Of a stretch of DNA of 12,930 bases, positions 1,970 through 7,214 are shown in pieces. How positions within the stretch are numbered: the stretch's first letter is position 1; each line of letters starts with the position of its first letter. This DNA is from Chloroflexota bacterium. Its GTDB lineage: Bacteria > Chloroflexota > Anaerolineae > DTPP01. Where the stretch lies: contig JAAYZY010000471.1 of the NCBI GenBank assembly GCA_012514615.1, positions 1-12,930 on the forward strand. The letters are read 5' to 3'. Both the position numbers and the translations under genes were made by a program. The notes beneath the pieces are model-generated. The model ran no database searches, was not told where the DNA came from, and was given only the letters and a program-made list of their open reading frames with translations.

Positions 1970-3493
1970 CTACCCGCCCGCCAGGTAGCGCAGGATGATG
2001 CCGTGGACGATCTGCTCTACCGGCGCGCGGTCGTCGGTGAGCACCAAGCCGTCGGTGTGGGCCGCCGCCGCCAGGGGCACCATGCGTTCGGCCACGGCTT
2101 GCAGCAGCGGCTCTTCCAGGAGGGCAGCGTTCGCCACCAGGTTGCTGACCTTGGCCGGTCGCACCGTGGCCACCAACAGGCTGTTCCCCAGGCTCTCGCC
2201 GGGTGGGATCGGCTCCGGCACCACGAAGACGCTAGGGAAGACGGTGGCCGCGGTGGAGGCCAGCGCCAGCACCAGGCTGTCGTCGCCCTCGGCCCGGGCC
2301 ACGTTGATGGCCAACACGCCGTCGGGGGCCAAGCGCCGCCGCGCCTCCAAAAAGAACTCTTGGGTGGTCAGGTGGAACGGGATGTAGGGCGGGCGGTAGG
2401 CGTCTACGGCAATGACGCTGTAGCGGTGGGGGCTCTGGGCCAAGAACCAGCGGCCGTCGGCCCCGTGGGCCTGCAAGTTGGGTTGGGTCATGCCGAAGAA
2501 GGTCCGCCCCACGGCGATGATTCGGGGGTCCAGCTCCACCCCGTCAATGGCCAGCGGCCCGTAGGCCCGGGTGTAGAGGTCGGCTACCGTGCCGCCGGCC
2601 AGCCCCACCAGGCAGAGCGACTGGACCTGCTGGGCGCGGTAGGGCGGTGGGTTGAAGAAGGGAGCCAGCAGGAAGTAGTCGAAGATCGCCTCGGTGAGGG
2701 GCTGGTGCGGATTGTAGACCGAGTGGACGCCCTGGCCCTCGTTGAGCTTCAGCAAGGTGTCGTCGCCGCGCTGCAACACCTGGATGTAGTTGTAGGCCGA
2801 CTCGTTTTCGTAGATCAGCGCCTCGTCTGGCTTGATGGGTCGGCTCTGTCCGGTGAGGGCCAGAGCCAAGATCACCAGCGGCACCGCCAAGTAGGCCCAG
2901 ACCCGCCGCAGCCCTGTGCGCAGCAGCCCCAGCCAGGCCACCTGCCACAGCGTCAGGGCGATGATCCAGAAGGTCCAGCGGGTACCCACGTTGGGGATGA
3001 GGAGCAGCACCGGGAGGAAGGTGCCCAGCAGGCTGCCCACGGTGGAGAGGGCGTAGATGGAGCCGGCCGCCCGCCCGGGTCCCTCGACCCGGCGCACGCG
3101 CAAGCCGATGACGAAGGGGGAGACCGTCCCCAGCAGGGTCATGGGCGCGGCCAGCAGCGCCAGCACGCCCAGCAGCGAGCCCACCAGCAGGGCCACGCTG
3201 TAGTCGGCAAAGCCGCTCACGGCCAACTGCAGCACCGGCGGCGCCAGGGTGGGCACCAGGCCGATGGCTAGGGCGGCCCACAGGGCGATCTCGTAGAGCC
3301 GCTCTTCCCGGGGCGCTCGGTCCACCAGCCAGCCGCCCAGCAGGTAGCCGGCCGAAAGGTAGAGCAGCACCAACCCGATGAGGTTGGCCCAGACGATGAG
3401 CGAGTTGCCGAAGTAGGGGTCCAACAGGCGTGAGGCGGCCATCTCCACCGCCATGCCGCTCATCCCTGCCACAAACACCAACACATACAGCAC
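1970..3493 (-). CDS. Membrane-anchored spermidine-synthase-like protein (fused MFS/SpeE type)
   Basis: 507 aa. Residues 1-215 hold about seven hydrophobic segments of the transporter-like half, including the typical opening FVAGMSGMAVEMAASRLL and a later SPFVIGLR. Residues 220-507 are a Rossmann methyltransferase-type domain: LVGLAGGTVADL (295-306) is the nucleotide-binding glycine loop, VELDP (319-323) the acidic ribose-binding strand, and IAVDAY (361-366) the strand with the family's catalytic-type Asp364. True spermidine synthases usually carry a second Asp three residues on; here it is Arg367, so classic putrescine aminopropylation is doubtful. Start is GTG at 3493 with AGGAGG at 3506-3501 and a 7-nt spacer; the longer open frame upstream overlaps the hydrolase gene and is not coding. 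It lies 22 nt after the hydrolase stop, so it is the last gene of the operon. Family assignment firm, reaction unknown. Confidence 0.85.
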   Translation of the reverse strand: MLYVLVFVAGMSGMAVEMAASRLLDPYFGNSLIVWANLIGLVLLYLSAGYLLGGWLVDRAPREERLYEIALWAALAIGLVPTLAPPVLQLAVSGFADYSVALLVGSLLGVLALLAAPMTLLGTVSPFVIGLRVRRVEGPGRAAGSIYALSTVGSLLGTFLPVLLLIPNVGTRWTFWIIALTLWQVAWLGLLRTGLRRVWAYLAVPLVILALALTGQSRPIKPDEALIYENESAYNYIQVLQRGDDTLLKLNEGQGVHSVYNPHQPLTEAIFDYFLLAPFFNPPPYRAQQVQSLCLVGLAGGTVADLYTRAYGPLAIDGVELDPRIIAVGRTFFGMTQPNLQAHGADGRWFLAQSPHRYSVIAVDAYRPPYIPFHLTTQEFFLEARRRLAPDGVLAINVARAEGDDSLVLALASTAATVFPSVFVVPEPIPPGESLGNSLLVATVRPAKVSNLVANAALLEEPLLQAVAERMVPLAAAAHTDGLVLTDDRAPVEQIVHGIILRYLAGG

Positions 3494-3500
3494 GGTCCTA

Positions 3501-3506
3501 CCTCCT
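3501..3506 (-). promoter_or_regulatory. Ribosome binding site that sets the GTG start at 3493
   Basis: Perfect AGGAGG, 7 nt before GTG at 3493. It decides between this start and the much longer upstream open frame, which would overlap the preceding gene. Confidence 0.8.
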
Positions 3507-3515
3507 GCGGTGGGG

Positions 3516-4962
3516 TCAACGCCCCAGGTTGCGCCGCCCGGCCAGGTACGCTTCGGGGGTGCCCACTGCCTCCAAGAACGCCACGTAGGCGCGGTGGATC
3601 TCCCGGGCCAGAGGCAGATTGCTCTCCAGCAGGTCGCGGCTCTCGTCTGGGTCGTCGGAGAGCCGGTAGAGGGTGGGCCGGGTGGGGTGGGCGGCCTTGT
3701 CCACCGGGCAGAAGGGGATGCGGGTGTGGCTGGCAGACGATGCGCGCCTTGGCCACCGTGGGGGTGGGGTGCACCAACGTGTGGGATGAGACAGCCAGGT
3801 CCCGCACCCGCTGGGCCTCTCCCCGCAGCAGCGGGGCCAGGGAATGGCCGTGGAGCATGGCCGGGTCCAGCCGCCAGGCGTGGTGGCCGTAGATGCCGCA
3901 CTGCAGCACCTGCATGGCCGCCTGGCCCGAGACCGTCTCGGTGGTCACCACGCCGGCCAGCTCCAGGATGGTGGGCATGAGGTCTGGCGGCTGGGCCAGG
4001 GCCGGGATGCACCGCCCCTCCTGCTGCCCAGACAGACGGATGAGCAGCGGGATGTGGCTGATGGGCTGGTAGAGGGGCGCCGTCTCGAAACCGTGGGCCG
4101 AGGAGTGCGACTTGCCCAAGAAGTCGTGCTCGCCGAAGAGGAAGCCATGGTCGCTGGTGAAGAGGATCGCCGTATCGTCGGCCACCCCCAGCGACTCCAC
4201 CTTGACCAGCAGGCGGCCGAACCAGTGGTCCAGCAGGGTCACTTCGCCGGCGTAGAGCGCCCGGCAGTGGGCCATCTCCTGGGGGGTGAGGAACTCCCGC
4301 CAGAAGCCGCAGGCCGGGTAGGTTACCTCCAGGCCGCTGTAGCCGGGGCCGTACATCTTCAGGTAGCGCGCTGGGGGGTCCCAGGGCTCGTGGGGGTCGA
4401 AGCAATCCACGTAGAGGAAGAATGGGCCTTCGTGGGCGTTCTCTTCCAACCAGCGGTTGGCGGCCAGCACCGTCTGGGGGGCGAACCAGTCCTCCTCACG
4501 TTGACGCTCGGCCACGTTGCGGGTGTAGCGCAGCAGGCTTTCCTCGAAGTCCGGTCGCCACTTCTCTGGGTGGGGCGGCTGGGGGACGTGCCGCGGGCGC
4601 GTGCGGTAGTGATCGTTCTCCTGGCCCCGGATCCATAGGAAGCCATCGAAGCCCCGGCCATAGTTGAAGCCGTTGCCCATGAGGTGGGGCGTATCGGCCA
4701 CCATGGCCGTGAGGATGCCCACCCGGCTCAACACCTGCTGCAGCACCACCAGGTCGTGGGGCAGGGGCCCCCATTGGCTCTCGGTGCAGGCGAAGCGCCC
4801 GCTCATCACATCTCGTCGATGGGGCACGGTGGGGAAGGAGCCCAGGTAGGCGTTGGGGAACCGGCAGGCTGTCTGGGCAAAGGCGTCCAGGTGGGGGGTA
4901 TGGACCGGGCCGGTCAGGTTGTCGGCGCGGAAGGTGTCGGCAACGAATAGGATGAAGTTCAA
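3516..4962 (-). CDS. Sulfatase/alkaline-phosphatase-superfamily hydrolase, broken by a frameshift near 3735
   Basis: Probably hydrolyses a sulfate or phosphate ester; substrate unknown. Metal-site motifs are in place: FVADTFRAD (6-14, D9), FDPHEPW (188-194, D190/H191), TSDHG (269-273, D271/H272) and a lysine in FLGKS (K284). The nucleophile site, normally C/S-x-P-x-R, reads TVPHR (45-49), so Thr45 sits where sulfatases have the formylglycine Cys or Ser. Codons up to about 3736 read VAKARIV; the family-like C-terminus (PTLYRLSDDPDESRDLLE through NLGR, stop at 3516-3518) is in the +1 frame. Dropping one base near T3735 joins the halves as RIV-ASHTRIPF, about 481 aa. Unshifted, translation runs on to 3460 with a nonsense Pro-rich tail. 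Start is TTG at 4962 with AGGAGG at 4976-4971 (8-nt spacer). Middle gene of the operon; sequencing error or real mutation both possible. Confidence 0.8.
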
Positions 4963-5849: not shown

Positions 5850-7214
5850 ATGGATAAGATCGTAGTGGCCTGCGCTCAGCAGCAGATGCGCATCTACGAG
5901 TCTGCCGAGGCGTACCAGCAGGACCTCAACCGCTTTCTGCGCTTGGCGGCCACCAAGGGGACGCGGGTGGTGGTCTTCCCTGAGTGCGCCGGCGCCATGC
6001 TGGCCATGCCTCTGATGTCCGGCGTCAAGGTGAATCTGTTGCGGGCCGTGGAGCGTAGCAAAGACCGGCAAGCTTCCTGGTGGACGCGCACCCGCGGCAA
6101 GATGGCAGCCACGGCTGCCGGGGCGCTGGGCAACTCGCTGCGGGGCAACCTGGAGCGGCTGCTGCAGCGCGACCCACAGGCCCTGCGCTCCCTCTACACC
6201 GAAATCTTCAGCCGCGCCGCCCGGGAGTGGGGCATGGTCGTGGTGGCCGGCAGCAGCTACCTCAGCGAGAGCGAGACAACGGCGCCCCACAACCAAGCGC
6301 TGGTCTTTGGTCCCGACGGGGCGCTCTTGGGTACCCAGGGCAAGCTGCACCTGCTGGCCGAAGAGAGGAGCTTGGCCGAGCCCAGCAGCGACGTGGCCAT
6401 CTTCGACACGCCGGTGGGGCGTATCGGCATCCTCTTCGGTGTGGACGCGCTCTACCCTGAGATGGGGCGCATCTTGGCTCTGCGCGGCGCGCAGCTCCTC
6501 ATCTGCCTGGCCGCCTGCTCCGGTCGACCGCTGGCCCACAAGGTCCGCCAGGCGTTCGAAGCCCGGGTGCAAGAGAATCAGCTCTTCGGGGCCATCGCCT
6601 TCTTGGTGGGCCGCAACCTCTTGGCGGCGGACCACAAGGATGACTTCACCGGCCGCTCGGCTGTGCTGGCCCCAGCAGAGATGACCCCCCGAGGCAACGG
6701 CATCTTGGTAGAGTTGGGTACCGAATCCAACGAGGGGTTGGTGGCTGGGAGCTTGGACTTTGGCCTACTGGGCCAGGTGCAGGCCCTGAGCGAGACGCCG
6801 CTGCGCCGGGCCATGCGCATGGACCTCTTCGCGCGACACCTGCCGGGGTTCTACAGCGGCGGGCAGTCGCTGCAGGAGGCGGCGCGCCAGGGTACCCGGC
6901 CGGCTGCGCCGGCCCTGGCAGAACCCCCTGTGGCCGAACCAGCCCCGGCGCCCCTCCCAGCGGCTGCGCCCCCCAGCCAGCCGCCGGAAGAAGCGCCGGC
7001 AGCCGAGGGATGGCAGGAGAGCCCGCAGTGGCCGCCGCAGGAGGAGCAGCCAGCCGCACCGGCGTCGGAAGCGTGGGCCCAGCCGGCCAGCGAAGCGCCT
7101 GACGCCGAGCCGCTGCCCGCGGACGAGGCGGCCTCCTGGCTGGCGGAAGAGGCTCCCGAAGCGGAGGAACCACCGCCCAACAAGGGCAAGCGTCGCTTGT
7201 GGCCGTTCTCCTGA
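5850..7214 (+). CDS. Nitrilase/carbon-nitrogen-hydrolase-fold protein lacking the catalytic Cys, with long Pro/Ala tail
   Basis: 454 aa. Residues 1-345 have the nitrilase-superfamily fold: the opening strand KIVVACAQ, FPECAG with Glu45, GKLHLL with Lys165, and GRIGILFGVDALYPE (190-204). In active enzymes that last segment reads I-C-x-D, with Cys as nucleophile; here it is Gly197 (codon GGT, one base from Cys TGT), while Asp199 and the following PE remain. Relative to ~270-aa enzymes there is an extra stretch of about 55 residues (58-112). Residues ~350-440 are low-complexity Ala/Pro/Glu/Trp sequence, ending in a basic-aromatic tip NKGKRRLWPFS. It may be a pseudoenzyme used for binding or scaffolding, or chemistry may be altered; Cys219 and Cys223 lie downstream but not at the canonical site. 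Own promoter, divergent from the Mo-protein operon; ends 10 nt from the convergent next gene. Confidence 0.85.
   Translation: MDKIVVACAQQQMRIYESAEAYQQDLNRFLRLAATKGTRVVVFPECAGAMLAMPLMSGVKVNLLRAVERSKDRQASWWTRTRGKMAATAAGALGNSLRGNLERLLQRDPQALRSLYTEIFSRAAREWGMVVVAGSSYLSESETTAPHNQALVFGPDGALLGTQGKLHLLAEERSLAEPSSDVAIFDTPVGRIGILFGVDALYPEMGRILALRGAQLLICLAACSGRPLAHKVRQAFEARVQENQLFGAIAFLVGRNLLAADHKDDFTGRSAVLAPAEMTPRGNGILVELGTESNEGLVAGSLDFGLLGQVQALSETPLRRAMRMDLFARHLPGFYSGGQSLQEAARQGTRPAAPALAEPPVAEPAPAPLPAAAPPSQPPEEAPAAEGWQESPQWPPQEEQPAAPASEAWAQPASEAPDAEPLPADEAASWLAEEAPEAEEPPPNKGKRRLWPFS

Follow-up and report, generated by a model that had tools for sequence, protein, structure and literature searches.

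A glycine fixed in place of the catalytic cysteine in a family of nitrilase-fold proteins from Chloroflexota

The window analysed here, a stretch of 12,930 nucleotides from a Chloroflexota bacterium (contig JAAYZY010000471.1 of assembly GCA_012514615.1), carries a gene for a nitrilase-fold protein in which glycine occupies the position of the catalytic cysteine (Table 1). Its start codon lies a few bases downstream of the motif GGAGGGA, and the third-position G+C content of the open reading frame (ORF) is 80-92% in each stretch tested. The deduced protein matches the Pfam model CN_hydrolase (PF00795) at 2.9e-24 and, by sequence profile and nitrilase fold, belongs to the nitrilase superfamily. 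It touched six NCBIfam models, all with scores far below the cut-off, the best being NF040852 with 52.2 bits (cut-off 500), and TIGR03381 reaching 42 (cut-off 410.25); the curated cut-off was not reached for any of these named nitrilase equivalogs (AguB, deaminated glutathione amidase, Nit6803 and others). Active nitrilases have Cys at the nucleophile-elbow position. The window protein has the catalytic Glu and Lys and lacks the nucleophilic Cys at the elbow, where the segment around Gly197 reads RIGILFGVDALYPE. An earlier reading of the window, made from the sequence only, had reported Glu45, Lys165 and a GGT codon for Gly197, and re-reading of the DNA showed both the residues and their coordinates to be right.

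Table 1. Positions of the glycine-type nitrilase gene, its key residues and related gene arrangements
Feature	Coordinates	Strand	Remarks
Gene for Gly-type nitrilase-fold protein	5850..7214	+	454 aa; ORF with ATG start, Pfam CN_hydrolase match
Glu45 codon, first triad residue, present	5982..5984	+	Glu in 47/54 family proteins, 28/35 loci
Lys165 codon, second triad residue, present	6342..6344	+	Lys in 45/54 family proteins, 27/35 loci
Gly197 codon GGT, nucleophile-elbow position	6438..6440	+	Gly in 54/56 proteins, 34/35 loci
Low-complexity Pro/Ala/Glu-rich tail, residues 351-454, terminus KRRLWPFS	6900..7211	+	composition, low pLDDT
Overlapping g1/g2 pair	L113:455-2460; corresponding pair in L114	n/a	candidate pseudoenzyme-enzyme pair
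Tandem Cys/Gly nitrilase proteins	L036:9776-11518; P0059, P0061	n/a	alphaproteobacterial and Sodalis records

A protein search, in which only the 7996 candidates with most words in common were scored, resulted in 77 proteins that were aligned. Of these, 56 (P0001-P0055 and P0057) constitute the family of the window protein, hereafter the window family. At the nucleophile column 54 of them have Gly, one has Ala (P0020), one has Asp (P0045) and none has Cys. The sequence-only reading had proposed to look for Cys at this column in close homologues; all seven closest relatives (P0002-P0008, 63-66% identity) have Gly. The remaining 21 aligned proteins comprise 16 with Cys and 5 with Gly (P0059-P0061, P0063 and P0064), the latter of the tandem type described below. 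A genome scan with the single sequence gave 18 pattern matches of which none was confirmed; a scan of genome records with an alignment (A2) gave 234 confirmed matches, and 80 of these were kept. Loci L001-L035 belong to the window family; only four of the other nitrilases (L036-L080) entered the analysis, L036, L038, L062 and L072, serving as tandem example or outgroup. When translated from the DNA, the 35 Chloroflexota loci, whose records are named Anaerolineae, Caldilineae, Ardenticatenia and similar, encode Gly at the nucleophile column in 34 cases, Asp in one (L011) and Cys in none. Since it recurs in separately assembled genomes, the glycine is genuine and not a sequencing error. As it is found in nearly every member, the change from Cys to Gly most likely dates back to the base of the family.

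The codons at this column differ between the loci (GGC 28, GGG 8, GGA 3, GGT 2 and GAC, for Asp, 2 in 43 rows), which indicates that the amino acid itself has been retained and not merely the DNA. Residues 1-345 are under purifying selection. Pairwise ratios of nonsynonymous to synonymous substitution rates (dN/dS) ranged from 0.04 to 0.18 for non-identical pairs with more than 72% identity and finite dS, many of them with dS above 1; the 43 rows include 8 identical pairs, and 8 of 51 sources were missed by the motif filter. In each of 10 genomes one strong copy of the gene and no second member of the family was found.

The structure check proposed in the sequence-only reading bore out the fold: the confidently predicted model, of a monomer, is of nitrilase type, with a strand at residues 190-196 and a helix at 197-201, so that the strand ends at 196 and the helix begins at Gly197 itself. 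Two other cysteines had been considered as substitutes for the nucleophile, and both were rejected since neither is conserved or located in the elbow: Cys219 is Cys in 8 of 54 proteins and 4 of 35 loci, Cys223 in 20 of 54 proteins and 9 of 35 loci. Conservation scores, in which similar sequences were down-weighted, averaged 0.75 in the Glu loop (residues 40-50), 0.74 in the elbow (191-204) and 0.70 in the helix 233-254, compared to 0.58 over residues 1-345, and Gly197 itself scored 0.94. The constraint on the Glu loop and the elbow suggests a site that is still in use rather than a vestige, possibly, though not necessarily, with a single fixed ligand.

Thus, the fold is conserved and the catalytic motif has been lost throughout the lineage under purifying selection. 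That the protein is a pseudoenzyme and not a decaying gene, as the sequence-only reading had held, is well supported by the family-wide Gly, the purifying selection, the confident predicted fold and the lack of Cys at the nucleophile column. The window family is well supported as a family-wide pseudoenzyme, whose members would be inactive as hydrolases. The best explanation, to which we assign a probability of roughly 0.55, is that of a conserved nitrilase-superfamily protein without hydrolytic activity, which binds a small ligand and whose tail presents the domain. The thioester intermediate of nitrilase chemistry needs a Cys nucleophile. Without this nucleophile no such intermediate can form, and the site may hold a small ligand (an amide, nitrile, carbamoyl compound or carboxylate) without turning it over. 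A binding role appears most likely because not only the fold but also the elbow has been kept, together with Glu and Lys in the majority of members. Members of the family would then be the natural counterparts of laboratory Cys-to-Ala variants, which hold their ligand and of which complexes have been solved (6ypa, 4izs).

In the tail of the window protein the Pro, Ala and Glu fraction is 0.68, and block means of the predicted local distance difference test (pLDDT) are 47-61. Family tails beyond residue 350 have a median length of 92 aa (amino acids) and consist of 48% Glu, Ala and Pro (83 sequences). An aromatic motif (e.g. LWPFS, WPFES, FPWQK or PWWKRYLP) occurs in the last 30 residues of 25 out of 79 tails, where shuffled tails gave 0.2 on average and at most 4, a contrast that is overstated since the pattern was picked after inspection of the tails and the tails are related. 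It is plausible, judged from these sequences, that a short binding motif sits on a disordered arm. The long acidic tail, with its aromatic tip in part of the family, may present the domain to a partner or a surface. The binding or scaffolding role suggested by the sequence-only reading is likewise plausible, although the tail, which had been taken as evidence of scaffolding, does not carry this suggestion by itself since its length varies greatly (-2 to 272 aa).

Several observations weigh against binding of a ligand by a tail-presented domain. Glu45 is gone in 7 and Lys165 in 9 of 54 family proteins, never both in the same protein, and only 21 of the 35 loci keep both. Ligand contact via these residues would hence not be universal. 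The Lys loop (residues 160-170; 0.59) is only of average conservation, and the segment following the elbow (216-230) reaches 0.52. In g2, a related family with an intact triad that is described below, the corresponding values are 0.66 and 0.69, with 0.67 for the Glu loop, 0.78 for the elbow, 0.68 for the helix and 0.63 overall. The lower values of the window family in these two segments speak against a single fixed ligand pocket. Two of the three triad neighbourhoods are still constrained, whereas the Lys side is about average. Both tail and motif are variable; the motif is missing from 54 of 79 tails, so that the function cannot be defined by the tail in itself. The 35 loci share no conserved operon partner. 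Finally, the family is patchy. It was found in 4 of 10 genomes of one order and, among 400 genomes sampled from the phylum, in at least 3; the latter count is a lower bound since scoring was limited to the top 4 or 5 candidates from each genome. The phylum sample gave at least five strong matches, namely the three of the window family and two (G012 and G025) of the g1/g2 type. In a further genome scan with the same limit on candidates, G147 turned out to be a Cys-type relative.

The genomes G012 and G025 are close relatives. Both contain a gene of 304 aa, termed g1, which encodes Gly at the nucleophile column, retains Glu but not Lys, and is followed by a full-triad gene, termed g2; the g1 stop codon overlaps the GTG read as the g2 start. 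The two g1 proteins are identical at 291 of 304 residues. Searches resulted in 168 matches for the g1 family and 174 for the g2 family, of which 120 each were listed. Among the listed g1 proteins, 114 of 120 have Gly and one has Cys, Lys is lost in all 120, and Glu is lost in 106 and kept in 13 of 119. The listed g2 proteins have Cys in 117 of 120 cases, Gly in 2 and Arg in 1, whereas the Glu (119 of 119) and the Lys (120 of 120) are invariant. Where names are given, g2 proteins are called 'nitrilase' or 'nitrilase-related carbon-nitrogen hydrolase', in records from Chloroflexota, Bacillota and Armatimonadota. The g1 and g2 lists agree in the length of the longest contig, taken as a sign of a shared contig, in 18 of 120 listed rows. 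A common source underlies 17 of these; the remaining pair, P0086/P0293, has two different sources and probably agrees by chance. In the controls, 0 of 53 rows agreed between the window family and g2 and 3 of 53 between the window family and g1. Hence, g1 and g2 probably lie on one contig in further genomes; adjacency was observed only in G012 and G025.

Such an arrangement suggests that the window protein, too, may be an inactive subunit in a mixed oligomer with one of the ordinary Cys-type nitrilases of the cell, stabilizing or tuning that enzyme. Fusions point in the same direction as the g1 and g2 genes overlapping in two related genomes (L113 and L114) within the same branch. P0056, a protein of 732 aa from a record named Firmicutes/Bacillota, unites both kinds of domain in one chain, its first domain having kept Cys and lost Glu and Lys and the other being intact. 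In three tandem proteins (P0059, P0061 and L036; records named Bradyrhizobium and Sodalis and an Azospirillaceae locus) a Cys domain comes first and a Gly domain second. Further nitrilase-like matches were present in each of 10 genomes checked. In contrast, g2 was found in none of 15 family-bearing genomes, metagenome assemblies that may be incomplete; the top match of the g2 model was the family gene itself and the next reached at most 97 bits. Nor was a second nitrilase-like ORF detected beside the family gene in any of the 35 loci (two profiles, E 1e-3), 16 of which reach 3 kb on both sides. Moreover, the tree joins g1 to g2 and not to the window family (97/96). We consider the mixed oligomer unlikely for the window family: the paired-subunit model that fits g1 is only a rival here because no g2 was found in the 15 genomes, no second nitrilase in the 35 loci and no neighbour conserved in most of them.

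Less probable still is that the protein remains an enzyme by another route, for example with a water molecule activated by Glu45 or in a non-hydrolytic reaction that does without Cys. Both Glu and Lys are kept in 38 of 54 proteins, the elbow is conserved, and it is specifically Gly that has been kept rather than any non-Cys residue, a preference given here as counted and not relative to a null model. However, some members have lost Glu or Lys and kept the rest. We know of no nitrilase-superfamily member that functions without the Cys, a statement for which no search was made. Nothing but the odd codon speaks for gene decay or for an error of sequencing or assembly, and both are practically excluded by Gly in almost all loci and proteins, the open frame with its high third-position G+C content and dN/dS values well below 1.

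The number of Cys-to-Gly changes was assessed in a tree of 50 rows from which the three triad columns were omitted. The rows comprised 14 of 54 window-family proteins, 14 of 120 each of g1 and g2, P0058, 3 tandem C domains and 4 outgroups, and the groups were named after the homology searches and a first tree of 82 rows. The window family (100/99), g1 (100/99) and g2 (100/98) each formed a clade, g1 grouped with g2 (97/96), and the Gly domain of the rhizobial type was placed elsewhere. In the quicker 82-row tree, support for g1 with g2 was only 85, the first domain of P0056 (Cys) fell with g1, and the Cys/non-Cys state needed at least 5 changes. The approximately unbiased (AU) test rejected the hypothesis that Gly arose only once in g1, the window family and the C domain of the rhizobial type (p 3.4e-5); a clade of the window family and g1 was not rejected (AU p 0.094). 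Because joint origin including the rhizobial-type domain is rejected, the change appears to have arisen at least twice, perhaps three times, under the tree model used. The window protein is not assigned to the g1 pseudo-subunit family: the two form separate clades, although a joint clade is not rejected, and searches found no g2 in the 15 family-bearing genomes and no second nitrilase in the 35 loci.

A more tentative idea is that the nitrilase fold became a non-catalytic binding module by the same replacement on two or three separate occasions, as the tailed Chloroflexota protein, as g1, an obligate partner subunit of g2, and as the second domain of the rhizobial-type tandem proteins. Glycine itself might have been selected in these cases, making room in the pocket for an amide or acid that is bound without reacting, and the proteins would be natural substrate traps or sensors.

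Compared to the nitrilase superfamily at large, the window protein shares the profile match, the predicted fold, the PE motif after the elbow and, in most of its family, Glu and Lys; it differs in the missing Cys, in the greater distance from the Glu loop to the core strand that follows and in the long disordered tail. The g2 proteins fall in the same branch of the tree as the window family but keep the triad and have an extra N-terminal segment. The g1 proteins share Gly at the nucleophile column, whereas they are about 300 aa long, lack the triad and the long tail, and are encoded by a gene that in two genomes overlaps that of g2. The mycobacterial homologue of the N-acyltransferase Lnt, BCG_2279c, is also of the nitrilase superfamily. 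This protein, with the replacement C387S, was unable to replace its active paralogue (PMC3850990); it resembles the window protein in the replaced nucleophile but has Ser instead of Gly and is of an acyltransferase family. A bacterial precedent for an inactive subunit needed by its active paralogue is the metformin hydrolase MetCaCb, a pairing of an active with an inactive subunit (PMC11271267), which is of the ureohydrolase and not the nitrilase superfamily. Sorghum NIT4A and NIT4B2 act as a heteromeric nitrilase (PMC5154151).

Among the papers found by searches on nitrilases in an open-access library, none, judged by title and opening of the abstract, treated a nitrilase pseudoenzyme, and a paper elsewhere or under other words is possible. 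New are the family-wide fixation of Gly, a change that has apparently arisen more than once within this fold, and, in sister families, a pair of overlapping genes, one putatively inactive and one active. Database names of the window family, where given, are often 'nitrilase-related carbon-nitrogen hydrolase' or 'predicted amidohydrolase', and many entries have none or 'hypothetical protein'. Such names credit the family with an activity that is very likely absent. Repeated replacement of the nucleophile by an identical residue within a single fold would provide a natural series on the way from enzyme to binding protein. The g1/g2 genes, for their part, offer a bacterial candidate, open to direct testing, for the pairing of an enzyme with a pseudoenzyme.

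The neighbours of the family gene differ between loci, and therefore no operon partner is claimed. Named by reading of the sequence, these are ATP-binding cassette (ABC) transporter-like genes upstream in L001, L014, L024, L031 and L032, an overlapping XdhC-type gene in L029 and a tRNA-synthetase-like gene in L027. The commonest plausible neighbour encodes a small membrane protein, mostly of about 100 aa as called, which is convergent and lies 1.4-6.1 kb from the start of the family gene in 12 of 35 loci (L001, L011-L015, L017, L020, L022 and L024-L026); the one copy tested, from L011, had no Pfam match. A pair of EutN/CcmL-type genes (microcompartment vertex) and a class II aldolase gene are located upstream of, and divergent from, the family gene in L011, L013, L021 and L028. 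These calls are based on sequence clusters, and the L011 copies were confirmed by Pfam. An aldolase-type gene is likewise found upstream in L016, L025 and L035. In L031 and L032 the family gene directly follows branched-chain amino-acid ABC-transporter-like genes, with an asparaginase-like gene downstream (again named by reading of the sequence), possibly a context of nitrogen metabolism.

Within the window, a sulfatase ORF is located on the minus strand (3460-4962). Its last approximately 100 residues seem to be out of frame, and a stretch resembling a sulfatase C-terminus is found in another frame near 3516-3674, possibly as the result of a frameshift in the gene or the assembly. From the genes of the window, only one for a protein resembling the major facilitator superfamily (MFS) and spermidine synthase recurs near the family gene (E 1e-5), in 1 of 35 loci (L021), apart from a partial TPR/TolB match in L029. 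This gene, at 1970-3500 on the minus strand, encodes a fused MFS/spermidine-synthase-like protein (NF037959, 197.5 bits), and its relative in L021 lies about 2 kb from the family gene.
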